Below are positions 1-11,723 of a stretch of 11,723 bases of DNA, piece after piece (position 1 is the first letter of the stretch; the number at the start of each line of letters is the position of its first letter). The DNA lies in NCBI GenBank assembly GCA_030639215.1, contig DAOWDD010000006.1, positions 1 through 11,723 on the forward strand, in the 5' to 3' direction. Position numbers and translations under genes: made by a program. The notes beneath the pieces were generated by a model that saw only the letters and a list, made by a program, of their open reading frames with translations, made no database searches and was not told the origin of the DNA. This DNA is from Dehalococcoidia bacterium (GTDB lineage Bacteria > Chloroflexota > Dehalococcoidia > Dehalococcoidales > UBA5760).

Positions 1-2366
1 AATTCGCGCAGAGCCTCCAAACGATACGATGACACTTTAGCCGCGAGTACGTTGACTCCGTTAACCACAGCTACCTGACTTCGCAAAGACACCGTTACCT
101 GCCGAGACAGCTCCCGCTCCAGAGTCAAAACCCGCCGATGCTCCGTTTCCAATTCGCCAGACAAAATAGCTACCCTGTCCTGAACTTCACCCGCTGTCGT
201 CCCCAGAGACTCAGCAATCCTATCTAAACTGAAAAATCGCCGGTTAACAAATTCTTCAGCCCCCCTACCGGTAACAGCTTCAATGCGCCGCAAGCCAGCG
301 CCGACGCTACTCTCACCAACAATTTGAAAGAAGCCTATCTCACCGGTTGAACTGACATGAGTACCACCGCAGAGCTCTGCGCTGACAGCGGCTTCCCCTA
401 TCTTCACCACACGAACTATATCACCATACTTTTCATCGAATAAAGCTATCACACCTTCCTCAATCGCTCTTGCATACGGAGTTTCTTCACTATACACCCC
501 CAGGTTTTGGCGAATTTTATCGTTGACAATATGGCTTGCCTTATGTATTTCCTCTCTTGTCAGTGCCGCCAAATGAGAAAAGTCAAATCTAAGCCGCTCC
601 GGGGTTACCAGCGAACCTCTTTGCTGGACATGCTCGCCCACTACCTGACGCAGAGCCAATTGGAGTAAATGGGTTGCCGTATGATTACGAGCAATATCAA
701 GCCGCCGTTGTCCATCCACTATCGCCTCAACAATATCACCAGCGGTTAAATTCCCCTCACTGACATATCCATGGTGTATCGTGGCATCTTGTGAACTACG
801 AGCAGTATCGGTGACAGAAAATCTGCCCGATGGGCTAATCAACTCACCGGTATCACCCACCTGCCCCCCCATTTCTCCATAGAAAGGAGTGGCCTCTAGA
901 ACAATGCTTGCCTCCTTCCCCTCTTCTACTGTTTCAACAGACCTGTTCTCAATCATTAGATAAACTATAGCCGATTTATGCTTAAGGTCGCCATAACCGA
1001 CAAAGGCGGTCTTCTGAACCTCATGCCGCATATCCAGTTTACCCGGTACATTCAGAACCCTGGCAAACTTATGGGCAGCACGGGCCTTCTCCCGCTGCTT
1101 TGCCATTTCCCTTTCAAAACCCGCTAAATCCATAGACAAACCTGACCTGGATACAACTTCTTTAGTTAGCTCTATCGGAAAGCCGTAGGTATCGTATAGC
1201 TTAAATGCCTGTTTGCCCGGGATTATCTTTACCCCCTTACCGGTTGCCTCTTCAATGATTTCATCTAATAATCCCAAGCCGGTACTGAGCGTCTCGTTAA
1301 ACCTTGCCTCTTCACTCTCGATCACCCTGATAATAAAGTCTTCTCGCTGCACTATTTCTGGATAGATATGGCCCATCATCCGAATAGTAGCTTTAGCCAC
1401 TTCAGCCAGAAATGGCTTATCCCTGGCTAATCTTCGGCTAAACATTGCGGCACGCCGTAACAGCCGTCGCAGTACATAACCCCGGCCCTCATTAGCAGGA
1501 ATTACTCCATCACCAATCAGAAAGGCGACTGCCCGGCCATGCTCAACTACCACCCGCATCGCATTAGCAGTTTCTTCATCAGAGCCATATTTCTTTTCTG
1601 CCAGTTCAGATACACACTCCAGTAAAGGCATAAAGAGGTCAGTTTCATAGACGGAAGCTCTACCCTGCATTATCGCAGTCACTCTCTCCAAACCCATCCC
1701 GGTATCAATATTGGGTTTGGGTAGTAAAGCGCGGTGTCCATCCTCGTGCTGGTTGTACTGGGTAAACACCAGGTTCCAAATCTCGGAAAAGCGCCCACAA
1801 CTACAGCCGGGACCACAGGAAGACTTCCCACAGCCAACCTCCTCGCCGAGGTCATAGTGAATCTCGCTGCAGGGTCCGCAGGGTCCGGAATTACCGGGCG
1901 GTCCCCAGAAATTCTCCTCTTCACCAAACCGCAATATTCTTCCCTTTGGAACGCCCTGCTTCCGCCAGTAGCCAAAAGCCTCGTCATCATCAAGAAAGAT
2001 GCCTATCCATAGTCGCGATGGAGGTAGCCCCAAATCCCGGGTAACAAATTCCCACGCCCAGCTAATAGCTTCCTGCTTAAAGTAGTCCCCGATACTGAAG
2101 TTACCCAGCATCTCAAAGAAGGTAAGGTGAATCAAGTCGCCTACTGATTCAATATCAGTAGTCCGAAAGCACTTCTGGCATGAAACTAAGCGGGGATTAG
2201 TCGGCTGCTTCTCACCTAAATAGTAAGGCTGAAACTGCACCATACCAGCACTGGTAAATAGCAAAGTGGGGTCGCCCTGGGGTATTAAAGAGTCGCTGGG
2301 GATGATGTCATGCCCCTTCTCTTCAAAGAATTTCAAATATGCCGACCGAACTTCATCACCTGTCAT
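1..2366 (-). CDS. alaS: Alanyl-tRNA synthetase, C-terminus cut off by window edge
   Basis: Charges tRNA-Ala with alanine in the cytoplasm and edits mischarged Ser/Gly-tRNA. About 788 codons are visible and the frame runs off the left edge; family members are usually about 870-880 residues, so only the end of the C-terminal (DHHA1/C-Ala) region is missing. The N-terminal class II core is present, with FTSAGMVQF near residue 32 and motif 3 GMGLERV near residue 222. The editing domain carries the zinc ligands HTATH (His562, His566) and CGGTH (Cys666, His670). A Cys-rich insertion (CGKSSCGPGCSC) sits before the FSEIWNLVF stretch of the core. The start is the ATG at 2366, preceded on the minus strand by an AGAGG ribosome site 7 bases away. 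It is read away from galU and has its own promoter. The identity is certain; the missing tail lies outside the window. Confidence 0.98.
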   Translation of the reverse strand, partial: MTGDEVRSAYLKFFEEKGHDIIPSDSLIPQGDPTLLFTSAGMVQFQPYYLGEKQPTNPRLVSCQKCFRTTDIESVGDLIHLTFFEMLGNFSIGDYFKQEAISWAWEFVTRDLGLPPSRLWIGIFLDDDEAFGYWRKQGVPKGRILRFGEEENFWGPPGNSGPCGPCSEIHYDLGEEVGCGKSSCGPGCSCGRFSEIWNLVFTQYNQHEDGHRALLPKPNIDTGMGLERVTAIMQGRASVYETDLFMPLLECVSELAEKKYGSDEETANAMRVVVEHGRAVAFLIGDGVIPANEGRGYVLRRLLRRAAMFSRRLARDKPFLAEVAKATIRMMGHIYPEIVQREDFIIRVIESEEARFNETLSTGLGLLDEIIEEATGKGVKIIPGKQAFKLYDTYGFPIELTKEVVSRSGLSMDLAGFEREMAKQREKARAAHKFARVLNVPGKLDMRHEVQKTAFVGYGDLKHKSAIVYLMIENRSVETVEEGKEASIVLEATPFYGEMGGQVGDTGELISPSGRFSVTDTARSSQDATIHHGYVSEGNLTAGDIVEAIVDGQRRLDIARNHTATHLLQLALRQVVGEHVQQRGSLVTPERLRFDFSHLAALTREEIHKASHIVNDKIRQNLGVYSEETPYARAIEEGVIALFDEKYGDIVRVVKIGEAAVSAELCGGTHVSSTGEIGFFQIVGESSVGAGLRRIEAVTGRGAEEFVNRRFFSLDRIAESLGTTAGEVQDRVAILSGELETEHRRVLTLERELSRQVTVSLRSQVAVVNGVNVLAAKVSSYRLEALRE

Positions 2367-2402
2367 CTACTAACCTCTAGCTAAGAATAACTACTATGTA
2401 CG

Positions 2403-2431
2403 ATTTTAGTGCAAGCTATACTAGCTGTCAA
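2403..2431 (-). promoter_or_regulatory. Sigma70-type promoter for alaS
   Basis: On the minus strand a perfect TTGACA (2426-2431) is followed by a 17-base spacer and TAAAAT (2403-2408), one mismatch from the -10 consensus. The predicted transcript start near 2396 gives a leader of about 30 bases before the alaS ATG. No T-box-like leader fits in that space. This is the best promoter match in the window. Confidence 0.7.
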
Positions 2432-2488
2432 TGAAGAGCGGTCTATCGAGATAGAACAAGGCGGATGGAATGGACAGCCTCAATATCC

Positions 2489-3349
2489 CTAGAGCAGCCT
2501 ACGTAAATACTGCCTTAGCCCCGGCCCGATATCAGGGTCCTTTAGTGCCAGGGCTATCGTCGCCTCGAGCCAACCGGAAGGGGTTCCGGTATCATAGCGT
2601 ACTCCCTCGAATTCGCAGGCACTTATCACCTGCTGTTTGAGTAACCGCTGCAGGGCATCGGTGAGCTGAATTTCCTTAATTCTACCAGGCGGTGTAGCCG
2701 CAAGAGCATCAAATATCTCAGGCACAAGGATATACCTGCCCACTATGCCTAAGTCAGACGGCGCTTCTTGCGGTTCTGGCTTCTCCGCCAGGCTCAGGAC
2801 CTGGTACAAACGATGTGAAATCTCCTTTGGCTCGATAATGCCATACTTTACCGTATCCTGGGGACTCACTCGCTCAACAGCAATGACGCTGGTCCCTCGC
2901 TGCTCGTAAACCTCTATCATCTGTTTTAGGGCCGGCACCCGGCTATCGATGATATCATCGGGGAGCAGAACGGCAAACGGTTCGTCAGCAATAATATCCC
3001 TGGCGATGAGGACAGCATGCCCGAGACCCAGCTGCTCCTTCTGCCTGATGTAGCAGATATTAACCAGGTTAGATAGCCTGCGCATCTCCTGAAGCAGCTC
3101 GGTCTCCCCTTTCTGCTCCAGAACATATTCCAACTCAAAAGAGCGGTCAAAGTAATCCTCTATGGCATGCTTACCCATAGCCGTTATCAAAATAACTTGC
3201 TCAATACCAGAATTGATTGCCTCTTCCACGGCATACTGGATTAGCGGCCTATTGACCAGTGGTAACATCTCCTTCGGCTGTGACCTGGTTACAGGCAAGA
3301 ATCTTGTGCCCCAACCGGCAGCCGTAATAATTGCCTTACGAACCTTCAC
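2489..3349 (-). CDS. galU: UTP--glucose-1-phosphate uridylyltransferase
   Basis: Makes UDP-glucose from UTP and glucose-1-phosphate in the cytoplasm. At 286 residues it has normal family length. The nucleotide-binding signature reads GWGTRFLP (12-19) followed by QPKEMLP with Lys26. The metal-binding acidic pair is in LLPDDII (Asp131, Asp132), followed by AEKP (188-191), KEIQLTDA (225-232) and YDTGTPSGW (252-260), all as in GalU. The start is GTG at 3349, supported by a GGAGG ribosome site at 3356-3360 with a 6-base spacer. The gene begins 11 bases after the stop of the ROK kinase remnant, so the two are probably cotranscribed. UDP-glucose is the donor for the trehalose-6-phosphate synthase encoded about 1.2 kb away, which suggests a shared role. 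The Trp in GWG, where Leu is more usual, is a small variation. Confidence 0.96.
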   Translation of the reverse strand: MKVRKAIITAAGWGTRFLPVTRSQPKEMLPLVNRPLIQYAVEEAINSGIEQVILITAMGKHAIEDYFDRSFELEYVLEQKGETELLQEMRRLSNLVNICYIRQKEQLGLGHAVLIARDIIADEPFAVLLPDDIIDSRVPALKQMIEVYEQRGTSVIAVERVSPQDTVKYGIIEPKEISHRLYQVLSLAEKPEPQEAPSDLGIVGRYILVPEIFDALAATPPGRIKEIQLTDALQRLLKQQVISACEFEGVRYDTGTPSGWLEATIALALKDPDIGPGLRQYLRRLL

Positions 3350-3360
3350 CTTGTTCCTCC

Positions 3361-3588
3361 TTATTCTGACTCTTGCTGAAGGGCAAAAATGGCAGCACCA
3401 AGTACCCCGGCATCACTGTCAAGCTGGCTAGAAACTATCGGCACTGCCTCAGCACCATCATCAGCCAGGGTAGGACAGTATTCTCTAGCCAGTATCTCGC
3501 ATCTAGCGGAAACGATACCGGCAGCTATTTTAGTGCCACCCAAATCCACAGCTATAACCGGTAGGCTGCACCCATCGACTTTCATCAT
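3361..3588 (-). pseudogene. ROK-family sugar kinase (glucokinase-like) remnant, internally deleted
   Basis: This short frame joins the two ends of a ROK kinase. The N-terminal part has VIAVDLGGTKIAAGIV, the ROK phosphate-binding motif, followed by an EILAREYCPTLADDGAEAV stretch typical of residues about 25-45. The C-terminal part, SDAGVLGAAIFAL, matches the last helix of ROK glucokinases. ROK enzymes are about 300-320 residues, while this frame has 75 codons from ATG 3588 (84 from ATG 3615). The ExGH region, the catalytic Asp and the zinc cysteine cluster are therefore all missing. The join falls near 3440-3450 and stays in frame, so a small protein could still be made. It cannot be an active kinase. 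It lies just ahead of galU, probably on the same transcript. ATG 3588 is preferred because a candidate promoter ends just upstream of it. An assembly collapse is the main alternative to true decay. Confidence 0.75.
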
Positions 3589-3598
3589 CTTGAATACC

Positions 3599-3627
3599 AC
3601 TTTATCCCATCTCAAACAATTTGTCGA
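3599..3627 (-). promoter_or_regulatory. Candidate promoter for the ROK remnant and galU
   Basis: On the minus strand TCGACA (3622-3627), 17 bases, then TAAAGT (3599-3604). The predicted start is only a few bases before the ATGATG pair at 3588/3585, implying a very short or absent leader. If real, it would leave the ROK remnant's promoter intact to drive galU. The match is moderate. Confidence 0.35.
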
Positions 3628-3695
3628 GACTGGTTTCGATACAGCAAGTTAGTGTAATATCCTATCCAGTCAAATCCGCTTCCCCTCTTCTAATG

Positions 3696-3725
3696 TTGAC
3701 TCAATAACTCATCCCCTGCTAAATT
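3696..3725 (+). promoter_or_regulatory. Candidate promoter for otsB, possibly leaderless
   Basis: TTGACT (3696-3701), an 18-base spacer, then TAAATT (3720-3725). The expected transcript start falls at or next to the A of the otsB ATG at 3732. No Shine-Dalgarno sequence is visible before that ATG (AAATTTAACCT), which agrees with a leaderless message. Confidence 0.4.
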
Positions 3726-3731
3726 TAACCT

Positions 3732-4541
3732 ATGTCGGATGCGTTTAACCACCTAAAACCTATTCAAGAAATTCTCGAACGAGTCCCCTTCGGGCTTATT
3801 ACCGATGTTGATGGTACGATTAGTAAGACCGCCCCCACCCCACAGCAGGCCAGGGTCTCTCCACTATGCCAACATTACCTCCTCAAACTCTCCAGTCATC
3901 TAGCCCTGGTAGCTGCTATCTCGGGAAGGCCGGCAAGTCAAGCTAAAGAAATGGTAGGAATTGACAGCATGGTCTACATCGGCAACCACGGACTGGAGCG
4001 CTGGAGAGGGGGTAAAACCGAGTTCCCGGATAGTACCCATGATTATTCCAGGGTAATCAAACCCGTGATCAAGGAATTAACCTCACTGCTCTCCTCGGAG
4101 GGTATCAGCATTGAAGACAAGGGGGTAACGGCTACTATTCACTACCGCCTCTCACCTGAACCGCAACTGGCGGAGAGAAAAATCTTAAACGCCCTGAATG
4201 CCTCAACCTGGGCCAAAAGCTTAAGGGTTATCCGCGGGAAAATGTCTTTCAACCTGCTACCCCCGATAGAGGCTGACAAAGGCACCGCGACAATGGACTT
4301 AATAAGGGAGTATAACCTGCAGGGGGGCATATACCTGGGCGATGACTACACGGATATTGATGCCTTCAGGGCAATACACACCGCCTGCCGTGACCGGAAT
4401 TTTCAGGGACTTGCCATCGGCATCATCAGCTCAGAGACGCCGGAAAAGCTGGGAACGGAAGCAGATTTTACTCTGAACGGGGTAGGTGATGTCGAGCGCT
4501 TCCTCAAGTGGATGACTGAGAGCGCCCTTCAATCAAGCTGA
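3732..4541 (+). CDS. otsB: Trehalose-6-phosphate phosphatase (HAD-IIB)
   Basis: Removes phosphate from trehalose-6-phosphate to give trehalose in the cytoplasm. It has 269 residues, normal for OtsB. HAD motif I is DVDGT (Asp25 nucleophile, Asp27 acid/base), motif II is AISGRP with Ser64, the family NHGLE is at 85-89, motif III Lys183 lies in ADKGTAT, and motif IV is GDDYTDIDAF (203-212) with magnesium-binding aspartates. The ATG at 3732 has no visible ribosome site, but a promoter directly abutting it suggests leaderless translation. The gene is divergent from the ROK remnant and galU, and convergent with otsA, which it overlaps by 38 bp at the 3' end. Synthase and phosphatase on opposite strands is uncommon because they are usually cotranscribed. 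The substrate is inferred from family and from the neighbouring OtsA. Confidence 0.93.
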   Translation: MSDAFNHLKPIQEILERVPFGLITDVDGTISKTAPTPQQARVSPLCQHYLLKLSSHLALVAAISGRPASQAKEMVGIDSMVYIGNHGLERWRGGKTEFPDSTHDYSRVIKPVIKELTSLLSSEGISIEDKGVTATIHYRLSPEPQLAERKILNALNASTWAKSLRVIRGKMSFNLLPPIEADKGTATMDLIREYNLQGGIYLGDDYTDIDAFRAIHTACRDRNFQGLAIGIISSETPEKLGTEADFTLNGVGDVERFLKWMTESALQSS

Positions 4542-6042
4542 CCGCATCCTCCAACAGACACAAGAGCCAATGAGTGATATCCTCTTCTTCAATTGACTTC
4601 TTCAGCGCACCAGCGCGCCTTTTTCTCTCCCCCGGCGGCATCATCAGCGCCTCATAAAGAGCCTCCGTTGTCCCCTCCAGGTCAGCCGGCGCCATCGTTA
4701 GAGCATAAGCACCCAACTGCTCACAAGCACCAACCGTCTCAGAAAGCACCAGGACGCCATCACGGTTGTTGACCGTGGGACCTTCCTTGGCCACCAGATT
4801 CATACCATCAATAACCGCATTAACCAGAAGAACATCATAAAGCCGCATGCCGGCCAGAGCCTGGATATAGTTATTTTCATAGAAGAAATCGATAGGATAC
4901 CACTCCTGAGTCGCGTACTTACTATTTATCGCCTCTATTAACTGGGTAGTCTCCTCCATATACCGCCGATATAGCCTCAAGTGGGTCCGGGTGGGCACCA
5001 GAAAGGCGATAAATTTGACCTGCCCTCGAAACTGGGGGTAACGCTCCAGCAATTTATCAAAGGCTTTGAAACCACGAATGATATTCTTACTGGGCTCAGC
5101 CCTATCAACGCGAACTATGGTATGCTCACCGCAAAGACTGCTCAGTTTCTGCTCATATTCCTGTAATCTGGTCGTGGAAAGCAGGTTCTTGATACCAGCG
5201 ACATCAATTGATATCGGGTATGCCTTAACCTGGGTGAGATGTCCCTCTACCTGAACAGTATGTCGGGTATAGTCCACCTCAGCCCCGTCAATGGATGATT
5301 CGCAACAGTGGATAAAATTGTGCACGTCCCGAGCCGTCTGCAGGCCGACGATATCCGCAGCACATAAACCCTGGAAAATCGCCTGCCGCATATAACCCGG
5401 CAACAACTTCCAGTAGCATGCTGACGGCCAGGGAATATGAGTAAAGTGCTGTATCACCAGATCCGGCATCTGCCGCCGCAGGTAAGCACCGACCAAGTAG
5501 AGATGATAGTCGTTAAGTATTACTATCGGGGGTGACGTACTTCTCATCGCCTCGTCAATAATTGCCCTGGCGAAGGCCTGATTCACTTCAACATAACCCC
5601 TCTCCCAGGCATCATGAACAGCGATATCGATATTGGGTGTAGTAGGTGTGTTCCACATGTAGTGCTGCAGGAACCAGAGCAAGGGGTTACAAATAACGCT
5701 ATAGTATTTATGGTATGTACTTCTGGGGCAAAATACGAAACGGAGATGTAGTCTGTCACCTTTTATCGGTGCCTTAAAACGTTTGCCCTGCGCCTTCTGC
5801 GCTATCTCCCTATCCCCCCGTCCCATAGCGCTGACAATCCAGTCAAGCTCGACATACCTGCCGAGACTACTAAGAGCAGTAACCACCCCACCACTGCCAC
5901 GGCGTGAGTGAAGCTGGCCTTCTTCCGTAAAGTAGTACTCGATAGGTCCACGGTTACTAGCCAGAATGATTCGCCTGCCGGATAACCTCCGGCTACATAA
6001 CTCATTGAGCCGGGTATCTCTACCCTCTTGGCCCATTTCCAC
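4504..6042 (-). CDS. otsA: Alpha,alpha-trehalose-phosphate synthase (GT20 family)
   Basis: Transfers glucose from UDP-glucose to glucose-6-phosphate, giving trehalose-6-phosphate. It has 512 residues. The N-terminal Rossmann domain shows LASNRGPIEY (27-36) and the phosphate-binding RRGSGGVVTAL (47-57), then NDYHL (177-181) and HFTHIPWP (199-206). The C-terminal domain shows RVDRAEPSKN (311-320), with Arg314 and Lys319 at the places of the UDP-phosphate contacts of E. coli OtsA, and DGMNLVAKE (412-420) with the donor-ribose Glu. The segment after the Arg is AEPSKN rather than the classical LDYSKG, marking a diverged GT20 subgroup. A different phosphorylated acceptor, as in glucosylglycerol-phosphate synthases, therefore cannot be excluded. 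The neighbouring otsB and galU favour trehalose. The start is GTG at 6042 behind a GGAAGGGGGG run; ATG at 6036 is an alternative two codons later. The 3' end overlaps otsB antisense. Confidence 0.9.
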   Translation of the reverse strand: MEMGQEGRDTRLNELCSRRLSGRRIILASNRGPIEYYFTEEGQLHSRRGSGGVVTALSSLGRYVELDWIVSAMGRGDREIAQKAQGKRFKAPIKGDRLHLRFVFCPRSTYHKYYSVICNPLLWFLQHYMWNTPTTPNIDIAVHDAWERGYVEVNQAFARAIIDEAMRSTSPPIVILNDYHLYLVGAYLRRQMPDLVIQHFTHIPWPSACYWKLLPGYMRQAIFQGLCAADIVGLQTARDVHNFIHCCESSIDGAEVDYTRHTVQVEGHLTQVKAYPISIDVAGIKNLLSTTRLQEYEQKLSSLCGEHTIVRVDRAEPSKNIIRGFKAFDKLLERYPQFRGQVKFIAFLVPTRTHLRLYRRYMEETTQLIEAINSKYATQEWYPIDFFYENNYIQALAGMRLYDVLLVNAVIDGMNLVAKEGPTVNNRDGVLVLSETVGACEQLGAYALTMAPADLEGTTEALYEALMMPPGERKRRAGALKKSIEEEDITHWLLCLLEDAVSLIEGRSQSST

Positions 6043-6112
6043 TCTGCCCCCCTTCCTGCTAAGAACGCATAATTCGGAGGCATTTATTCTATGTCCTCGA
6101 GAAACTAGTCGA

Positions 6113-6142
6113 ACTGTAGCACCCCGATAGCAAGCCTGTCAA
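6113..6142 (-). promoter_or_regulatory. Candidate promoter for otsA
   Basis: On the minus strand a perfect TTGACA (6137-6142), an 18-base spacer and TACAGT (6113-6118). The predicted leader is about 64 bases. Its -35 box lies back to back with that of the arsR promoter, 9 bases apart. Confidence 0.45.
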
Positions 6143-6151
6143 TACAATCGC

Positions 6152-6180
6152 TTGACAAAGCCCCGAAAATGGCTTAACCT
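6152..6180 (+). promoter_or_regulatory. Candidate promoter for the arsR operon
   Basis: A perfect TTGACA (6152-6157), a 17-base spacer and TAACCT (6175-6180). The predicted transcript start near 6187 lies inside the palindromic operator just downstream, as expected for a promoter repressed by an ArsR dimer. Confidence 0.5.
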
Positions 6181-6184
6181 ATAA

Positions 6185-6199
6185 GCATATATGCGCATA
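6185..6199 (+). promoter_or_regulatory. Probable ArsR operator
   Basis: Two overlapping perfect 10-bp palindromes, GCATATATGC (6185-6194) and TATGCGCATA (6190-6199), lie directly after the arsR -10 region and about 12 bases before the arsR ATG. AT-rich ATAT/ATGC dyads over the start of their own promoter are typical of ArsR/SmtB operators. The core ATGCGCATA recurs ahead of the permease gene. Confidence 0.55.
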
Positions 6200-6210
6200 C
6201 AGGATGAAAA

Positions 6211-6570
6211 ATGCATAGCCTGATGAAAGCACTAAAAGCACTGTCTGATGAAACCAGACTCAGGATACTAAACCTGCTGCTGGAGAGGGAGTGCTGTGTC
6301 TGCGAGGTCATGCAGGCACTCAACGTATCCCAGACGCGGGCTTCACGTAATTTAGGTATCTTATACGATGCCGGTTTTCTTAAGCTGAGGAAAGAAGGAC
6401 TATGGTCACTATACTCAATAGACAGAGATGGCATGCCAGAATATTTCACCTACCTGCTCGAAGCGGCAAAGAAGGCGCTTAAGGACAACAGACTGGCCAT
6501 CCAGGACAGTGAGCGCCTGATGAAGGCTGAGCGTGTTGGCCCTGGCCGTGTTAGGCGGTTAAGACAGTAA
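6211..6570 (+). CDS. arsR: ArsR-family metalloid-responsive repressor
   Basis: A 119-residue ArsR/SmtB winged-helix repressor. It would bind its operator as a dimer and leave DNA when arsenite or a similar thiophilic ion binds. The N-terminal ALKALSDETRLRILNLL (7-23) is the family's first helices. ECCVCEV (27-33) lies in helix 3 and corresponds to the ELCVCDL arsenite site of plasmid R773-type ArsR, with Cys29 and Cys31 as the CxC pair and an additional Cys28. The recognition helix is NVSQTRASRNLGIL (38-51), and the wing is FLKLRKEGLWSLYSID (56-71). The C-terminal tail ends in a basic stretch (GPGRVRRLRQ). The ATG at 6211 follows CAGGA with a suitable spacer; the ATG at 6223 is a weaker alternative. 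It is the first gene of the operon. The CVC motif favours As(III)/Sb(III) or trivalent organoarsenicals, but the inducer is inferred. Confidence 0.92.
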   Translation: MHSLMKALKALSDETRLRILNLLLERECCVCEVMQALNVSQTRASRNLGILYDAGFLKLRKEGLWSLYSIDRDGMPEYFTYLLEAAKKALKDNRLAIQDSERLMKAERVGPGRVRRLRQ

Positions 6571-6601
6571 CATTCTTTTTTTGCCTTAACTTGATGCGTT
6601 A

Positions 6602-6610
6602 ATGCGCATA
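6602..6610 (+). promoter_or_regulatory. Second copy of the operator-like sequence, before the permease gene
   Basis: ATGCGCATA here is identical to 6191-6199. The similarity is wider: both copies have CTTAAC, then 11 or 12 bases, then ATGCGCATA, one pyrimidine, and AGG. It lies between arsR and the permease gene, 22 bases before the permease ATG. It could be a second ArsR site controlling the structural genes. No convincing separate promoter was found here. Confidence 0.4.
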
Positions 6611-6631
6611 TAGGGAAGGAGACCTGAAGGG

Positions 6632-7666
6632 ATGGAAGCCACTGAGCTTCTGCACGGCGGGCTGAATGGCCTGACCGAATACCTATCACTACACGTGATT
6701 GCCTGCCTGGTGCCAGCCCTTTTCATTGCTGGAGCCATTTCTGCTTTTGCCTCGCAAGCTGCCATACTCAAGTACTTTGGCCCTCAGACCAAGAAACCGA
6801 TAGCCTATTCAGTAGGCTCTGTTTCGGGAGCAATCCTCGCAGTTTGCTCCTGTACAGTACTACCGCTCTTCGGCGGTATTTACAAAAGGGGAGCCGGACT
6901 CGGTCCGGCTATAGCCTTCCTATTTTCAGGACCCGCCATAAACATACTGGCCATTGTCTATACCGCTAACATACTGGGCTATGAGTTGGGAATAGCTCGA
7001 GCAGTAGGGGCTATTTCCTTTGCCGTTTGTATTGGTTTAATCATGGCTTTTATCTTCAGGAAAGAGGAAGTACAAAAAGCACAAGCCCGGGCCTTTGCCT
7101 TAGTTGAAGCTGACCCCAACGGTAAGAAACCCTGGCAATATGCCATATTCTTCGGCACCCTTATTGCTATTCTCATCACGGCTGCCTCTAAGTACTGGAT
7201 ACCTTCTGGCATCCTAGGTGGTGTTTTGGGCATCATACTGTGGCGCTGGTTTACAGGGGACGAGATTAAGGAATGGATGAAAGAGACGCTTTACTTCCTG
7301 AAGCGCATCTTGCCCTGGCTATTGCTCGGGGTATTTATCGCCGGGATTTTAGGCACGGTCATACCACCAACTGCCATGGCAACATACATGGGGGGAAATA
7401 CCATCTTTGCCAACTTCATTGCTTCTATCGGTGGGGCTCTTATGTATATCGCTACCCTCACCGAGGTGCCTATCATTAAAACGTTCATGGATTTAGGCAT
7501 GGGTAAGGGGCCAGCGCTGGCGCTGCTTCTGGCCGGGCCAGCCCTATCACTCCCCAGCATGCTGGCTATCAGAAGCATCATAGGCACCAAGAAAATGCTG
7601 GTTTATGTCGCCCTGGTGGTAGCAGCCGCCACAATCACCGGACTGATATACGGGTCAATAGCATAA
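6632..7666 (+). CDS. DUF318/YraQ-type permease, ArsP-like efflux protein
   Basis: A 344-residue inner-membrane permease with about eight to ten hydrophobic segments. Two related halves are joined by a charged cytoplasmic-looking loop (about 143-168). The first half has CSCTVLPLFGGIYKRGAG (72-89), then GPAIAFLFSGPAIN (91-104). The second half repeats the GPA theme (GPALALLLAGPALSLPS, 293-309) after LTEVPII (276-282). These are hallmarks of the family that includes ArsP (trivalent organoarsenical efflux) and SO_0444-type Cu/Zn exporters. The CSC pair (Cys72, Cys74) could be a soft-metal or thiol site. The start is ATG 6632 behind AAGGAG with a 10-base spacer. It follows the CVC-type arsR and precedes four thioredoxin-like genes, a common companion arrangement for this family. 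An organoarsenical substrate is plausible but not shown, and metal efflux is the alternative. Confidence 0.88.
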   Translation: MEATELLHGGLNGLTEYLSLHVIACLVPALFIAGAISAFASQAAILKYFGPQTKKPIAYSVGSVSGAILAVCSCTVLPLFGGIYKRGAGLGPAIAFLFSGPAINILAIVYTANILGYELGIARAVGAISFAVCIGLIMAFIFRKEEVQKAQARAFALVEADPNGKKPWQYAIFFGTLIAILITAASKYWIPSGILGGVLGIILWRWFTGDEIKEWMKETLYFLKRILPWLLLGVFIAGILGTVIPPTAMATYMGGNTIFANFIASIGGALMYIATLTEVPIIKTFMDLGMGKGPALALLLAGPALSLPSMLAIRSIIGTKKMLVYVALVVAAATITGLIYGSIA

Positions 7667-7685
7667 TAACAAGGAGGAGGCAAAT

Positions 7686-7943
7686 ATGATAAAGATAAAA
7701 ATATTCGGTTCTACCCCACCGTGTGCTAGATGCAAAGAACTGGAAAGAAGGGCAATGAATGTCGCCGGGAAGTATCCCGACCAGATAGAGGTGACTAAGT
7801 TTGACGCCTTCTCTGTGGAAGGGGACAAATACGGCATAATGCTAACTCCGGCTATGGTAATAAACGACAAGGTTATCTCAGCAGGAAAGCTTATTTCCGA
7901 AGAAGAGATAGAAAAAGCAATAAGAAAGGAAAGGGAGGTATGA
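7686..7943 (+). CDS. Small thioredoxin-fold protein A (CARC)
   Basis: An 85-residue cytoplasmic thioredoxin/glutaredoxin-fold protein with no signal peptide. The first strand IKIKIFGS leads to an intact redox motif PPCARC (Cys13, Cys16), and the cis-Pro loop is LTPAMVIND (53-61, Pro55). Length and motifs fit the small redox-active disulfide (TM0996/MTH895-like) group that often accompanies DUF318 permeases. A very strong ribosome site, AGGAGGAGG, sits just before the ATG, 19 bases after the permease stop. It overlaps the next gene by 4 bases (ATGA), so translation is probably coupled. Likely role: a dithiol electron donor or relay for the metalloid system. It differs from its three paralogs by lacking the extra Cys near the C-terminal helix. 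Confidence 0.87.
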   Translation: MIKIKIFGSTPPCARCKELERRAMNVAGKYPDQIEVTKFDAFSVEGDKYGIMLTPAMVINDKVISAGKLISEEEIEKAIRKEREV

Positions 7944-8209
7944 ATATGAAAGTAAGAATGGAGGTATTCAGCGGGGACCCGCCCTGTCCGGGGTGTGTGG
8001 CCATTCTGGCGCTGGCTGACGAGTACGCCAAAAAGCACACGGGCAAGTTGGAGGTAAGTAAGCTGGTCGGGGAGGAGGCGGTAGCTAAATTCGAGGAATA
8101 TAAGCTCGGCTGCGTGCCGGCGGTGGTTATTAATGAGAAGATAAGAATCGAGGGTATCTGTCCCAGCCGAACGACCCTAGACAACGCATTAAGGGAGGGT
8201 GGACTATGA
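7940..8209 (+). CDS. Small thioredoxin-fold protein B (CPGC)
   Basis: An 89-residue cytoplasmic thioredoxin-fold protein. The redox motif is PPCPGC (Cys16, Cys19); CPGC is close to the CPxC centres of disulfide-exchange proteins. The cis-Pro loop is GCVPAVVIN (57-65), with an added Cys58 two residues before Pro60. A further Cys74 lies in EGICPSRTTL (71-80). It thus has four cysteines and could hold two thiol pairs or bind a soft metal. It starts at ATG 7940, overlapping the previous stop as ATGA, with GGGAGG just upstream; an in-frame ATG at 7946 is possible. It overlaps the next gene by 4 bases. Its role is inferred as a redox partner in the metalloid operon. Confidence 0.86.
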   Translation: MNMKVRMEVFSGDPPCPGCVAILALADEYAKKHTGKLEVSKLVGEEAVAKFEEYKLGCVPAVVINEKIRIEGICPSRTTLDNALREGGL

Positions 8210-8469
8210 ACAAGGTAAAGATAGAGGCGTTCCTGTCAATTCCTACCTGCTCCGGCGGCATCAGCCTATCCAGACTGCTCAAGGAAATCCAGGACGAATT
8301 TGGTGATAGGGTGGAGGTAATTACCTATAAAGGGCGCAACGAGGTATTCGAAAGGTATAATTTGACTACAGCACCGGCGTTAGTTATCGGAGACCTGGTC
8401 AGGATAATGGGGGTCTGCCCCAGTAAAGAGTCGTTGATGTCGGCATTGAAAGAAGTGGGACTGGAGTGA
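8206..8469 (+). CDS. Small thioredoxin-fold protein C, degenerate CxxG active site
   Basis: An 87-residue paralog of the neighbouring thioredoxin-fold proteins. The active-site position reads PTCSGG (Cys15, Gly18), so the resolving cysteine of CxxC is missing. The cis-Pro loop TTAPALVIGD (54-63, Pro57) and the C-terminal MGVCPSKESL (68-77, Cys71) are kept. The remaining Cys15 and Cys71 leave three options: a monothiol mechanism like monothiol glutaredoxins, a long-range disulfide, or a binding rather than redox role. It overlaps the previous gene by 4 bases (ATGA). The intact frame and conserved fold argue that it is functional rather than decayed. Its function is not known from the family. 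Confidence 0.84.
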   Translation: MNKVKIEAFLSIPTCSGGISLSRLLKEIQDEFGDRVEVITYKGRNEVFERYNLTTAPALVIGDLVRIMGVCPSKESLMSALKEVGLE

Positions 8470-8480
8470 GGAGATAGAAA

Positions 8481-8723
8481 ATGGATATCAAGATTCTCGG
8501 TCCCGGATGTGCCAGGTGTCACGAGCTAGATAAAAGGACCAGAGAAGTGGTCAAGGAATTGGGCATCGATGCTAATGTCGAGTATGTCCAAGACATAAAT
8601 AAGTTAATTGAATACTCCATTCTGACCCCACCCGCTCTGGTGCTGAATGGCGAAATGGTATGTGTGGGACGGGTGCCTAGCAAGACTGAAATCAGTCAGA
8701 TTATCACTTCTGCCCTGGATTAG
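8481..8723 (+). CDS. Small redox-active disulfide protein D (CARC), TM0996/MTH895-like
   Basis: An 80-residue thioredoxin-fold protein, the closest of the four to the TM0996/MTH895 group. It opens with MDIKILGPGC, the redox motif is GCARC (Cys10, Cys13), the cis-Pro loop is LTPPALVLNGE (49-58), and it ends VCVGRVPSKTEI (60-71) before the last helix. The extra Cys61 sits two strand positions away from where paralogs B and C have theirs. The ATG at 8481 has GAGGAG 8 bases upstream and an 11-base gap from the preceding stop. In arsEFG-type operons a small thioredoxin-like protein accompanies ArsF and ArsG, and D is the candidate by position. That assignment is inference. Confidence 0.88.
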   Translation: MDIKILGPGCARCHELDKRTREVVKELGIDANVEYVQDINKLIEYSILTPPALVLNGEMVCVGRVPSKTEISQIITSALD

Positions 8724-8738
8724 GAGGAAAAAAGCGAA

Positions 8739-8755
8739 CGGTAGAAAAACTACCG
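8739..8755 (+). other. Intercistronic hairpin before the ArsF lipoprotein gene
   Basis: CGGTAG (8739-8744), loop AAAAA, CTACCG (8750-8755) makes a perfect 6-bp stem. No T-tract follows, so it is unlikely to be an efficient intrinsic terminator. It may instead mark an RNA processing or stability point that separates the thioredoxin genes from arsF. A strong AGGAGG (8722-8727) lies just before it with no start codon in range. Confidence 0.45.
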
Positions 8756-8817
8756 GCTGCCGGATACGAGATGCCGGTCAATACCCCGAATTCATTTAAG
8801 AAAGCGAGTAGATTTCA

Positions 8818-9789
8818 TTGAAAGTAACAGGTTTCTTTAGGAAATACTTACTGGTATCGATAGGATTATCAATAGGTCTTTTTCTTACGGCAGGCTGTAC
8901 GGCATCTCCCAACACACCTCCAGCAACCAACGGGGAAAAAGAGCCGACAGCCTACCAAATGGAAATAGACCTGCTTGGCATAAAATATGCGGCTACGGTT
9001 GATAGTCAGGGAAAGTTAGAGTCAAGCACTCTGGCAGCCTCTGCCGATAGTGAAATCAGTCTCTCCATAGATAGCGGCACCATAGTCCTGGACAGCGACA
9101 AGAAACCCCTCCAGACCATCGAGGCAGTAATTGACCCGAACCCACCACCTCTACCGGAAGGCGCCGACTATATTAGCCCGGTCTATAATTTGAGGCCACA
9201 AGGAGCCTCTTTTAATCCCCCGCTCAAGCTTACTCTCAGCTACGACCCTGCCCAACTACCGCAAGGACCGAAAGAGAATGATGTTTATATCGCCTGTTAT
9301 GAAGATGGCAGGTGGGAGGCGATGCGATACAAACAAGTAGATACCAAGAGGCACTTAGTAACCACTCAGATTGAACATTTCTCCAAGTATGCTGTTTTAA
9401 TACTAAATGAACAGAGCACGCCCACGCCTGAACCCAGCCCTACCCCCGGAGCAGACCGGGTAGATGTGGTCTATTTTCACCGGACCAACCGCTGTTACTC
9501 CTGCAACTATGCCGAGGCAGCGACGCTCTACGCCCTGGAAGCCTATTTCCAAGAAGAACTGGATAGCGGCAAGCTCACTTTTGAGTCGGTCAACGTTCAG
9601 GATGACAGCAATGCTGCCATTATCGAGAAGTACGGCGCCTACACCTCCCAGCTTTTCATCAATACCGTGACGGGTGATAACGAGAATATTGAGCATGTGA
9701 CTGAAATCTGGAACTTCATAGGAGATGACGAAGGTTTTACCCTTTTAATAAGAACTAAGGTTACGAACGCACTCGAGGGTACCAGTTGA
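8818..9789 (+). CDS. arsF: Lipoprotein with C-terminal ArsF-type thioredoxin-like domain
   Basis: A 323-residue exported lipoprotein. The N-terminus has FRK, a hydrophobic helix and a lipobox LTAGC (acylated Cys27). Residues about 45-195 form a beta-rich domain with SPVYNLRPQG, PPLKLTLSYDPAQLP and HFSKYAVL, similar to a domain in the exported protein encoded downstream. A TPTPEPSPTP linker (201-210) leads to a thioredoxin-like domain with VVYFHRTNRCYSC (Cys226, Cys229), FESVNVQDD and EIWNFIGDDEGF. The last domain fits the ArsF family, linked to reduction of nitrophenyl arsenicals. The only reasonable start is TTG 8818: a stop lies three codons upstream and the next ATG would lose the signal peptide. 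The ribosome site is weak, suggesting low output or dependence on upstream translation. It overlaps the ArsG-type gene by 1 base (TGATG). The gene symbol applies to the C-terminal domain only. Confidence 0.8.
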   Translation: MKVTGFFRKYLLVSIGLSIGLFLTAGCTASPNTPPATNGEKEPTAYQMEIDLLGIKYAATVDSQGKLESSTLAASADSEISLSIDSGTIVLDSDKKPLQTIEAVIDPNPPPLPEGADYISPVYNLRPQGASFNPPLKLTLSYDPAQLPQGPKENDVYIACYEDGRWEAMRYKQVDTKRHLVTTQIEHFSKYAVLILNEQSTPTPEPSPTPGADRVDVVYFHRTNRCYSCNYAEAATLYALEAYFQEELDSGKLTFESVNVQDDSNAAIIEKYGAYTSQLFINTVTGDNENIEHVTEIWNFIGDDEGFTLLIRTKVTNALEGTS

Positions 9790-10508
9790 TGGATTTCGGT
9801 AGTCTTATCTCCGGTTCTTCCGGCATTTCGGGGGCTCCCGTAATCGCAGCCTTCTCCCTGGGGCTACTCACTGCGATAAGCCCATGTCCCCTGGCTACCA
9901 ACATCGCAGCGATAGCCTACATCAGCCGGGGGGTTGCCGAACGCCGGTATGCAGTTACCGCCAGCGCGCTCTATACCTTGGGGCGGGTGCTAGCCTATTC
10001 TGTGCTGGGCGTGTTAATCGTCAAGGCTGGGCTGGAAATTCCCGGAATAGCCTCACTACTGCAAGACACCGGCGAGAAAATCCTGGGTCCAATATTGATT
10101 ACGGTTGGAGCTATCCTGTTAAATATACACCGGCTTCGTTTTGGCAGCGGGAATGCCAAGCTATCATCCATAGGTGACAGGGTCAGCCGCTGGGGAATGG
10201 CAGGCAGCTTTTTACTGGGGATTCTCTTCGCCTTAGCCTTCTGTCCCTACAGCGCCGTCTTGTACTTCGGAGTACTAATCCCGATGGCTTTTAAATCGAC
10301 CGGGGGCATAGCATTACCCGCAGTGTTTGCCATCGGTACCGGGCTCCCGGTACTAATATTCGGCATTTCGTTATCATTCGGCGTGAGCCGGGTTTCCTCC
10401 TGGTTTGAAAAACTTACCCGCGCTCAGCCAGTCATCCGCATGATAACCTCATGGGCATTGATCGGAGTAGGAATATACCTCCTAATATTGTGGGTACAGA
10501 CGGGTTGA
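9789..10508 (+). CDS. arsG: CcdA/DsbD-type membrane protein, ArsG family
   Basis: A 239-residue inner-membrane protein with about six hydrophobic segments in two related halves. The first half has LGLLTAISPCPLATNIAA (24-41, Cys33) and the second LFALAFCPYSAVLYFG (146-161, Cys152). These correspond to the paired Cys-Pro sites that CcdA/DsbD proteins use to pass electrons across the membrane. The SPCPLATNIAAIAYISR stretch is typical of the ArsG family, proposed to export trivalent aminobenzyl-arsenicals. Efflux and electron transfer to the ArsF domain outside are both possible. The start is ATG 9789 in a TGATG overlap with arsF, implying translational coupling; a TTG one codon earlier (9786) is also open. 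It is the last gene of the operon, and no intrinsic terminator was found after it. Confidence 0.86.
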   Translation: MDFGSLISGSSGISGAPVIAAFSLGLLTAISPCPLATNIAAIAYISRGVAERRYAVTASALYTLGRVLAYSVLGVLIVKAGLEIPGIASLLQDTGEKILGPILITVGAILLNIHRLRFGSGNAKLSSIGDRVSRWGMAGSFLLGILFALAFCPYSAVLYFGVLIPMAFKSTGGIALPAVFAIGTGLPVLIFGISLSFGVSRVSSWFEKLTRAQPVIRMITSWALIGVGIYLLILWVQTG

Positions 10509-10543
10509 AAGATGGAAAAGCATAAGCGATTCCTCATGACTAT

Positions 10544-10572
10544 TTGATAATTAACACCCGGTATGTTAGTAT
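10544..10572 (+). promoter_or_regulatory. Candidate promoter in the gap after arsG
   Basis: TTGATA (10544-10549), 17 bases, TAGTAT (10567-10572). It lies in the 170-bp gap (10509-10678) before the exported beta-protein gene. The gap is AT-rich and repeats TAGTAT (10567 and 10581). No terminator hairpin or RNA gene was seen in it. A separate promoter would put the last gene outside the metalloid operon. Confidence 0.35.
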
Positions 10573-10678
10573 TAGTTACTAGTATGATAATATTACTCGG
10601 TTATCACGGAGACACAAGCCATTCCGAGGGCATTTAAAGAGTAAGTTATCGTTTTACAACCAAATAAGGACAAGGGGA

Positions 10679-11723
10679 ATGAATAGGAAACTGTTTAAAA
10701 CAGCCTCGCTGTGGGTCGTCCTTGCACTGGTAGTACCGCTGATAGCGGTACTGTTCACAGCAAAGCCGGCCGAGGCTGGCTGAGGAAGCGGCGGCGGGTC
10801 GTCAGGTCCGACGACTGTGAGTCTTGAGGTGGATGTCAGCCCGCTGGGCAGCGGTTCTATCGAAGTAGATGGGGACGCGCCGTGTTCTCTTAATTCCTAC
10901 CCTGATACCATTGGCATCGAGACCGGTGACGATGTTCTCCTTGAGGCAATACCAGAATCCGGCTACCACTTCGTCAACTGGAGCGGAGAGCCTGTCTGGG
11001 ATGGAGAATCGACCAGCATTGAGAACCCCACAGAGGTGAGGGTTATCAATGCAATGGATATCACCGCCCACTTTGCCGCCGACTCTAATGAGTTCATCTC
11101 CGAGGATAAGATAATCAGTATTACTATTCCCGATGGAGCCACCGCCCTGGATGGAGAGGGTAACCCGCTTACCGATGTCAAGTTCCTTGTGGTGGAGAGT
11201 GTACCTGACCCACCTGAGGGCGTCAGCATTGTCGGACCGCCCTATCAACTGGGACCCGACGGGGCCACCTTTGACCCGCCGGTTACCCTGACCTGGAACT
11301 ATGACCCGGCCGATATCCCCGACGGGGTAGATGAAGAAGAGCTGGGCATCACCTATTACGATGAGGATGCTGCCAGGTGGCAGGAGTTAGAATCCACGGT
11401 CCATCCGGAAACGAATACCATTACCGCTCCGGTAGGTCATTTCACCACCTTCACTGTTATCGCACCACTCTCAACGGCGCCGGCTGCTTTTACCTTAAGC
11501 CCACTGAGCATCTCCCCACCCGAGGTTAGCGCCGGCGAGCCGGTATCTATCAGTCTTGTGGTGACCAACACAGGAGAGGTAGCCGGCAGCCATACCGCAA
11601 CCCTCAAGATAAACGGGGCGATAGTAGAAACAAGGGAAGTAAGCCTTGTCGGCGGCACCAGCGAAACGGTAACCTTTGCCACCTCCCACGATGAGACGGG
11701 CATCCACTCGATAGAGGTTAACG
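10679..11723 (+). CDS. Exported multi-domain beta-protein, frame interrupted by in-frame TGA, runs off window
   Basis: An extracellular protein cut by the right edge. ATG 10679 follows AAGGA with an 8-base spacer. It starts a clear signal peptide (MNRK, hydrophobic core, AKPAEAG). Codon 35 (10781-10783) is TGA, yet the same frame continues open for more than 300 codons with clear domains. These are a Gly/Ser linker, an InlB/Listeria-type repeat (SPLGSGSIEVDG to GYHFVNWSG to ITAHFA), and a beta-domain with PPYQLGPDGATFDPP, YDPADIPDGVDEEEL and GHFTTFTVI. A CARDB-like domain follows (LSISPPEVSAGEPVSISLVVTNTG). No good ribosome site lies after the TGA; GTG 10817 is the first poor candidate start. 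The options are a nonsense mutation (pseudogene), a sequence error, or readthrough/selenocysteine. The beta-domain resembles that of the ArsF lipoprotein. Function is unknown; surface or cell-envelope attachment is a guess. Confidence 0.65.
10798..10815 (+). other. Hairpin just downstream of the in-frame TGA
   Basis: GTCGTC (10798-10803), loop AGGTCC, GACGAC (10810-10815): a perfect 6-bp stem whose loop starts 20 bases after the TGA. The distance and the G at the start of the loop fit loose rules for bacterial SECIS elements, and the loop resembles the AGGUCU of E. coli fdhF. It lacks the bulged U. It could equally be chance in a GC-rich Gly/Ser linker. Confidence 0.35.

Follow-up and report, generated by a model that had tools for sequence, protein, structure and literature searches.

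A predicted two-module operon with an ArsR-type regulator and a conserved thioredoxin triad, and an adjacent putative selenoprotein gene, in a Dehalococcoidia bacterium

The arsEFG module, which comprises ArsE, ArsF and ArsG, was reportedly described by Chen, Zhang and Rosen in 2019, and the PF03773 permease family includes ArsP, the SO_0444 Cu/Zn protein and SaoE. A further point of comparison is offered by two selenoprotein operons of Haft and co-workers, Tso and SAO, known to us from the accessible part of PMC13188914 and from NCBIfam model names; their models cover thioredoxin-like proteins and, beside these, either TsoR, a regulator of the ArsR type, or SaoE, an efflux protein resembling PF03773 members. 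Here we describe an eight-gene operon, and the gene that follows it, in an 11,723-nucleotide stretch from the assembly of a subsurface Dehalococcoidia bacterium (GCA_030639215.1, contig DAOWDD010000006.1, positions 1 to 11,723; hereafter "the window"). The operon is best explained, and somewhat probably so, as an ArsR-controlled arsenic detoxification operon composed of two modules, and it includes a triad of thioredoxin-like proteins with fixed cysteine signatures.

The eight open reading frames (ORFs) are co-oriented and tightly packed on the + strand (6211–10508), with successive intergenic distances of 61, 19, -4, -4, 11, 94 and -4 base pairs (bp). This run had been proposed in a preliminary description of the same DNA, and ORF positions and profile matches for every member now confirm it. 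The four thioredoxin-fold proteins counted there all match Thioredoxin_3 (Trx1 to Trx4: 58.5, 38.5, 28.3 and 87.5 bits; cut-off 24.8), but the third has CSGG rather than CxxC and the fourth belongs to the ArsE family. Its remark that four such proteins exceed what an arsEFG-type operon needs is borne out, one of them being ArsE and the other three a separate module. Judged by its genes, the operon appears to be made of ArsR, a PF03773 permease and Trx1-Trx2-Trx3 on one side and of Trx4-LipoF-CcdA (ArsE-ArsF-ArsG) on the other.

Set against arsEFG, the Trx4-LipoF-CcdA genes represent the same families in the same arsE-arsF-arsG order, but the ArsF domain is preceded by ~200 further residues on a lipoprotein, and the set is joined by the thioredoxin triad and the permease; aromatic-arsenical nitro reduction and efflux are here predicted at most. 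Published ars-type operons with the same three redox gene types contain arsC in seven of eight instances, whereas none is adjacent here, and the accessible parts of those accounts mention no thioredoxin triad. Relative to Tso and SAO, Trx1 resembles TsoC, yet the triad loci carry cysteine rather than selenocysteine, and matches to TsoC, TsoX, SaoT and SaoE all fall below cut-off. The triad is the new part of the operon, being conserved and having fixed cysteine signatures, whereas ArsE, ArsF and ArsG are gene types known from ars operons; the portions of the literature available to us (PMC2963123, PMC9751042 and PMC9144182 included) held no such triad.

We compared the triad across 16 independent loci (handles L and G denote loci and genomes), namely the window, L002–L015 (14 loci retrieved from species-representative genomes by means of Trx2) and L036, from a genus member. 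Gene presence was scored by BLASTP with the window proteins, Trx2 being present in 14 of the 16 by construction, and refetched sequences (L037–L040, L119 and L120, of L003, L002, L004, L005, L006 and L007) were counted once. Trx1, Trx2 and Trx3 are adjacent and in the same order in 15 of the 16; the exception is L003, where a truncated Trx3 lies ~1 kb away from Trx2. This split triad (genome G402; 9431–10890 of L037), with Trx3 lacking its N-terminus and ArsF and ArsG absent, looks like decay or insertion. A PF03773-type permease lies within the cluster in 14/16 loci (absent from L013, none seen on the short contig of L008), as assigned by Pfam in the window and L012 and by BLASTP in the remainder, and Trx4-like genes occur in 11/16. 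ArsF and ArsG together occur in seven (the window, L002, L004, L006, L007, L008 and L036), at least five of which are from Dehalococcoidia or Dehalococcoidales; the sequence of L005 stops right past Trx3. The gene-order comparison raised by the preliminary description therefore found co-conservation, and because triad loci without ArsF/ArsG exist, we treat the triad as a module in its own right. Conversely, a Leptolinea plasmid encodes ArsR, redox-active disulfide protein 2 and a PF03773 permease, with no triad within the stretch read.

The cysteine signatures of the triad are close to invariant among relatives. Trx1 (7686..7943, + strand, as are all genes below) has a PPCxxC motif, its CxxC being present in 15/15 relatives, while Trx2 (7940..8209) combines SGDPPCPGC and CVP, both fixed in 15/15, with a CPS found in every aligned row except L013. 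In Trx3 (8206..8469), CSGG replaces CxxC, and since PxCSGG is kept in 14 of 15 relatives (the exception being the truncated L003 copy), the second active-site cysteine is a glycine; six full-length Trx3 rows (L009–L012, L014 and L015) have exactly one cysteine within their last 88 residues.

The triad appears, from its distribution, to be a patchy accessory module. A Trx3 profile searched against 400 genomes of the phylum (E<=1e-4) returned two matches, the own genome and G283, and the latter was rejected as a triad, being a weak match to the C-terminus of a 467-residue protein. Against 393 genomes of the class (E<=1e-8) there were five matches, one a 34-residue fragment, and against 61 relatives eight, including six of nine genus members, with G400 and G450 partial only; matches in G400, G450 and G591 span only 32–34 residues and were excluded from triad counts. 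The G283 protein (L017, 1483–2874), by eye a uroporphyrinogen-decarboxylase/methyltransferase-like protein of 467 residues whose C-terminal, thioredoxin-like CAAC domain resembles the triad, adjoins a CobW-like gene.

The permease (6632..7666; PF03773, i.e., ArsP_1/DUF318, 268 bits, cut-off 32) carries a VCSCT motif conserved in 13 of 14 relatives' permease rows, and the one row that lacks it is a second copy in L002 with an internal deletion. Beyond PF03773, its only curated matches are to two subfamilies, SO_0444 Cu/Zn (115 of 300 bits) and SaoE (108 of 325), both far under cut-off. The preliminary description had called it ArsP-like: the Pfam membership stands, but an ArsP identity is putative at most, no ArsP-specific NCBIfam model being matched, and we regard the protein as a predicted PF03773 member and no proven ArsP. 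A structural model built from 12 sequences (predicted local distance difference test 67) was set aside and not used as evidence, as was a Foldseek search with it, in which no PDB entry matched at E<=0.001 (best E 0.014); sequence searches of the PDB with the permease, ArsG and LipoF turned up no convincing relatives.

In the second module, Trx4 (8481..8723) belongs to the ArsE/redox-active disulfide protein 2 family (TIGR00412, 98.5 bits, cut-off 62), a match that is our reason for grouping it with ArsF/ArsG, and its GCxxC is present in 10/10 alignment rows (the window and nine relatives). LipoF (8818..9789) is a predicted lipoprotein whose C-terminal residues 215–316 form an ArsF domain (NF040494, 92 bits, cut-off 60), the RCYSC motif being conserved as RCxxC in 6/6 relatives. 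As the preliminary description had it, the operon places parts on both sides of the membrane, the ArsF domain of this lipoprotein most likely lying outside. ArsG (9786..10508), a CcdA-like membrane protein that also matches DsbD_2 and DsbD_TM, exceeds the NF040495 equivalog cut-off (268 bits versus 200), again in keeping with its earlier assignment. Its SPC and FCPYS motifs are present in all six ArsG relatives, while a seventh row holds another CcdA, 29% identical, in which SPC alone is present, and as both CcdA-type cysteines are retained, ArsG may move electrons instead of arsenicals. Of 321 genomes of the phylum, 4 have an ArsG match above the cut-off.

The regulator at the head of the operon (6211..6570) is, as first noted, a CVC-type ArsR/SmtB metalloregulator (NF033788, 81 bits, cut-off 55; motif ECCVCEV), CVC or CIC being kept in 16/17 aligned ArsR-like rows. 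Upstream of arsR, the sequence reads as a promoter-like TTGACA-17-TAACCT (6152..6180, + strand), with TTGACA-17-TAAACT as its counterpart in L036 and L038, although a consensus promoter scan did not list this site. An unstranded 18-bp palindrome, CATATATGCGCATACAGG (6186..6203), is a candidate ArsR operator: it is symmetric at 14/18 positions in the window, at 16/18 in L038 and at 18/18 in L036, where it is perfect and centred on ATGCGCAT, the core found at 6191–6198 of the window. A second, likewise unstranded ATGCGCAT lies in the arsR-permease interval (6602..6609), in L036 and L038 as well, making two copies in the window against 0.18 expected (at least two in 4/200 shuffles).

What is observed is gene content, gene order, cysteine conservation and, in some relatives, the presence of ACR3 and ArsC-like genes alongside; the substrate, the part played by Trx3, which way electrons flow and indeed every functional step are inferred. 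ArsR would sense a trivalent arsenical at its CVC site and free the promoter. Trx1-Trx2-Trx3 could then act in the cytoplasm as a serial thiol relay or arsenical carrier—Trx2, with CPGC and two further cysteines, as the active dithiol partner and Trx3, with CSGG, as a single-thiol carrier—keeping the substrate reduced and passing it to the permease, whose VCSCT would be a likely contact for the soft metalloid. Electrons from ArsE in the cytoplasm may cross the membrane by way of ArsG, which is CcdA-like and has two cysteines, and reach the ArsF domain at the surface, providing reducing power outside. Transmembrane flow seemed less probable to the authors of a published account of these redox gene types in an ars operon, since ArsC is cytoplasmic, at least in the accessible part of that account.

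Arsenic as the theme of the operon is supported by gene context in relatives, as far as genome comparison can indicate. In a class relative (L109), the order is ArsR-ArsE-ArsF-ArsG-ArsC-like-ACR3, with ACR3 (452 of 283 bits), ArsE (98.5 of 62) and ArsG (240 of 200) over cut-off. An ArsR 72% identical to that of the window is followed in L041 by a PF03773-type permease, a Trx4-like protein, a DGC protein, a thioredoxin lipoprotein, CcdA and ACR3, and one 65% identical in L099 adjoins ArsC-like, ACR3 and ArsM (352 of 263) genes; this ArsM, near a close ArsR and in a locus lacking ArsE/F/G and the triad, is the only one seen among the loci. In the genus member L039, ACR3 (5640–6991) is preceded by ~200 bp that copy the operon promoter region and the first arsR codons, the operon itself, with a different arsR copy, lying further downstream. 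A Prevotella nigrescens plasmid (L153) encodes consecutively an HTH regulator, ArsF, ArsG, a Thioredoxin_3 protein, a PF03773 permease (222 bits), ArsC and ACR3. DGC-domain proteins (PF08859) recur in or beside permease-thioredoxin clusters (L041, 5682–6092; L039, 13649–14065).

Several observations weigh against an arsenic role for the operon. ArsC, ArsM and ACR3 are all absent from the window (ArsC and ArsM were not searched genome-wide), and ACR3 was found in 8 of 19 genomes tested, including only two of eight triad genomes (G406 and G414), and not in triad genomes G000 (the own genome, 75% complete), G401, G402, G405, G673 and G691. Among the relatives, in L109, ArsF (50 of 60 bits) and the ArsC-like protein (86 of 174) are below cut-off, as are the ArsC-like matches in L099 and L013 (136 of 174), the L041 lipoprotein scores as a thioredoxin rather than as ArsF, and in L039 the palindrome core upstream of ACR3 is altered to ATGCCCAT, with two other ORFs intervening between ACR3 and the operon. 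The matches of the permease assign it to no one substrate class, and the below-cut-off likeness of Trx1 to TsoC (34 of 45 bits), TsoX (24 of 52) and SaoT (29 of 65) would fit soft metals no less than arsenic.

Nitroaromatic arsenicals are man-made feed additives, an unlikely pressure for the lineage of the window, and nothing in our analysis supports such a substrate. This bears on the preliminary description, which raised a possible reduce-and-export pathway. Spelled out for organic (nitroaromatic or methylated) arsenicals, ArsE and ArsF would reduce a pentavalent or nitro group, aromatic arsenicals would leave through ArsG, and the permease would serve as ArsP. ArsE, ArsF and ArsG are indeed all over their cut-offs, PF03773 is the Pfam family of ArsP, and the NCBIfam names of ArsF and ArsG reflect organoarsenical activity; PMC9144182, in its accessible part, likewise lists ArsG and ArsP as organic-arsenical transporters and ArsE and ArsF among organoarsenical resistance genes. 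However, the neighbouring arsenic genes of relatives are ACR3 and ArsC or ArsC-like, which leaves a nitroaromatic or organoarsenical substrate unsupported, the permease matches no ArsP-specific model, and ArsG retains its electron-conduit cysteines, so that we consider this pathway unlikely.

The context of ArsE/ArsF/ArsG with ACR3 and ArsC-like genes in relatives, which indicates arsenic, also counts against a soft-metal or organometal operon (copper, zinc, mercury or alkyl metal) akin to SO_0444, Sao or Tso, in which the triad would be the cysteine counterpart of their selenoprotein thioredoxins. The restriction of the permease's NCBIfam matches to SO_0444 and SaoE would suit such an operon, as would those of Trx1 to TsoC, SaoT and TsoX, a weak match of ArsR to TsoR, and the listing in PMC13188914 (accessible part) of a selenocysteine form (UxC) of the SO_0444 transporter beside the SAO and Tso operons. 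Yet every one of these matches is below cut-off, and MerA, MerB and copper genes were not recognised by eye among the listed locus ORFs (no profile search was made), making a soft-metal role improbable in our estimate. We give less credence still to a general extracytoplasmic thiol-disulfide pathway, a split DsbD/CcdA system serving cytochrome c or disulfide repair, that just happens to sit under an ArsR. ArsG is CcdA-like, the lipoprotein bears CxxC, a DsbD_TM protein (99 bits) comes after the triad in L012, and exported CxxC proteins lie downstream in L011 and L015 (by eye or just below cut-off), but the CVC ArsR with two ATGCGCAT copies, the cluster permease in 14/16 loci, the triad loci without any ArsG, and a rarity (5/393 class genomes) and patchiness ill-suited to housekeeping all argue otherwise.

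The conserved neighbourhood reaches one gene further downstream than the preliminary description mentioned, and this gene (10679..11723, running off the contig) is a more surprising result than the operon. We think it very probable that it represents a family of exported Dehalococcoidales selenoproteins, apparently one not described before, with a predicted signal peptide, selenocysteine, InlB B-repeat and CARDB domains. The predicted selenocysteine codon, an in-frame TGA (10781..10783), follows the signal peptide by one or two residues, giving predicted UGC, UGG or UPG sites, with CPC or CGC in cysteine forms. The TGA is kept in syntenic copies from three genus members, and it stands at the aligned column in 35 of 43 copies examined (the top of ranked lists with refetches merged; further copies exist), L082 having a TGA two residues on. 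Three copies have TGC at this column (G784, G777 and G741), and G776 has cysteines two and three residues on. The remaining three are distant matches, lipoprotein-like or unrelated, with TGT (L154), TGC (L156) and TCT (L155), whose genomes (G404, G794 and G795) have SelA, the cysteine match L154 being the one in G404. Reassignment of TGA in the lineage was rejected, five of the eight operon genes terminating in TGA, and so was a pseudogene, the same TGA occurring in 35 copies from many genera.

The selenocysteine machinery largely follows the codon. SelA is over cut-off in 19 of 23 genomes with the TGA form and was not found in the four cysteine-form genomes (G784, G777, G741 and G776, 70–88% complete; Fisher p = 0.004 with ancestry ignored), three of which belong to one genus. 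Mildly against a selenoprotein, SelA was also not found in the TGA-form genomes G400, G423, G793 and G788, two of them >90% complete. SelA and SelB are over cut-off in the own genome (G000), tRNA-Sec occurs in G402 and G403, and the family, with up to several copies per genome and four in the own genome, has copies near selA in the own genome (L080), L083, L086 and L090 and near selD, selA, selB and tRNA-Sec in L091 and L094, where SelD has a GAGUASK site. In the accessible parts of PMC4918011, PMC5736913 and PMC4959059, selenocysteine use in this phylum is reported in formate dehydrogenases, with SelD also reported in PMC4918011; the portions of the literature at hand (including PMC13188914 and PMC12013277) contained no selenoprotein family of the present kind, and NCBIfam models gave no match to the gene at E<=0.01. 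Among the database relatives listed (120 of 574 matches), mostly "hypothetical protein" where named, 47 pass a hydrophobic-start test; by eye, CPC, CGC, CSC or CC comes directly past the signal peptide in 39 of these and is missing in 8. The remaining 73 show no hydrophobic start, as would be the case were genes called from a start behind the TGA.

Thirteen nucleotides (nt) past the TGA lies a hairpin resembling a selenocysteine insertion sequence (SECIS) by position and conservation only (GGTCGTC-AGGTCC-GACGACT, 10797..10816, + strand). It is conserved 9–15 nt behind the TGA with a 7-bp stem, 95% of cells being paired versus 68% at most when slid, and presumably resembles the E. coli fdhF element. 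Further tests lend a SECIS no support: no pair changed on both sides in the covariation analysis, no stability excess over shuffles was found and Rfam returned no SECIS match for the hairpin; the case is further weakened because the hairpin bases also encode SSGPTT.

The gene starts 170 bp past the operon on the same strand, with no terminator-like and one weak promoter-like site between them on that strand. We regard it as a neighbour of the operon and a putative functional member at most, and its proximity may be plain synteny, since other copies sit elsewhere. In the boldest form, which we consider quite unlikely, the selenoprotein would be the outer partner of the ArsE-ArsG-ArsF relay in a selenium-assisted extracytoplasmic system for arsenic or soft metals. 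PKD/Ig-domain lipoprotein-like proteins adjoin selenoprotein genes in L091 (6057–6947) and L039 (15624–16901), and a 533-residue protein with an exported CxxC (GIGCHDC) segment lies downstream of the selenoprotein gene in L036 (3822–5423) and L039 (17851–19452), the L036 copy having a weak, below-cut-off SfLAP-type membrane match. Elsewhere in the window, a ROK-type sugar kinase (by eye; 3361–3615) of 84 residues, versus 328–329 in syntenic L036, L038 and L039, is probably a truncated gene or an assembly error.

The NCBIfam names of ArsF and ArsG derive from one tested substrate class, and this locus shows that a redox module, ArsE-ArsF-ArsG, and a transport module with a PF03773 permease can be told apart. 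With its fixed single-thiol member, the triad yields a testable relay hypothesis. The downstream family, if our reading of it is true, would mean that, in a bacterial order with few cultured members, an exported protein once matured begins almost at once with selenocysteine.

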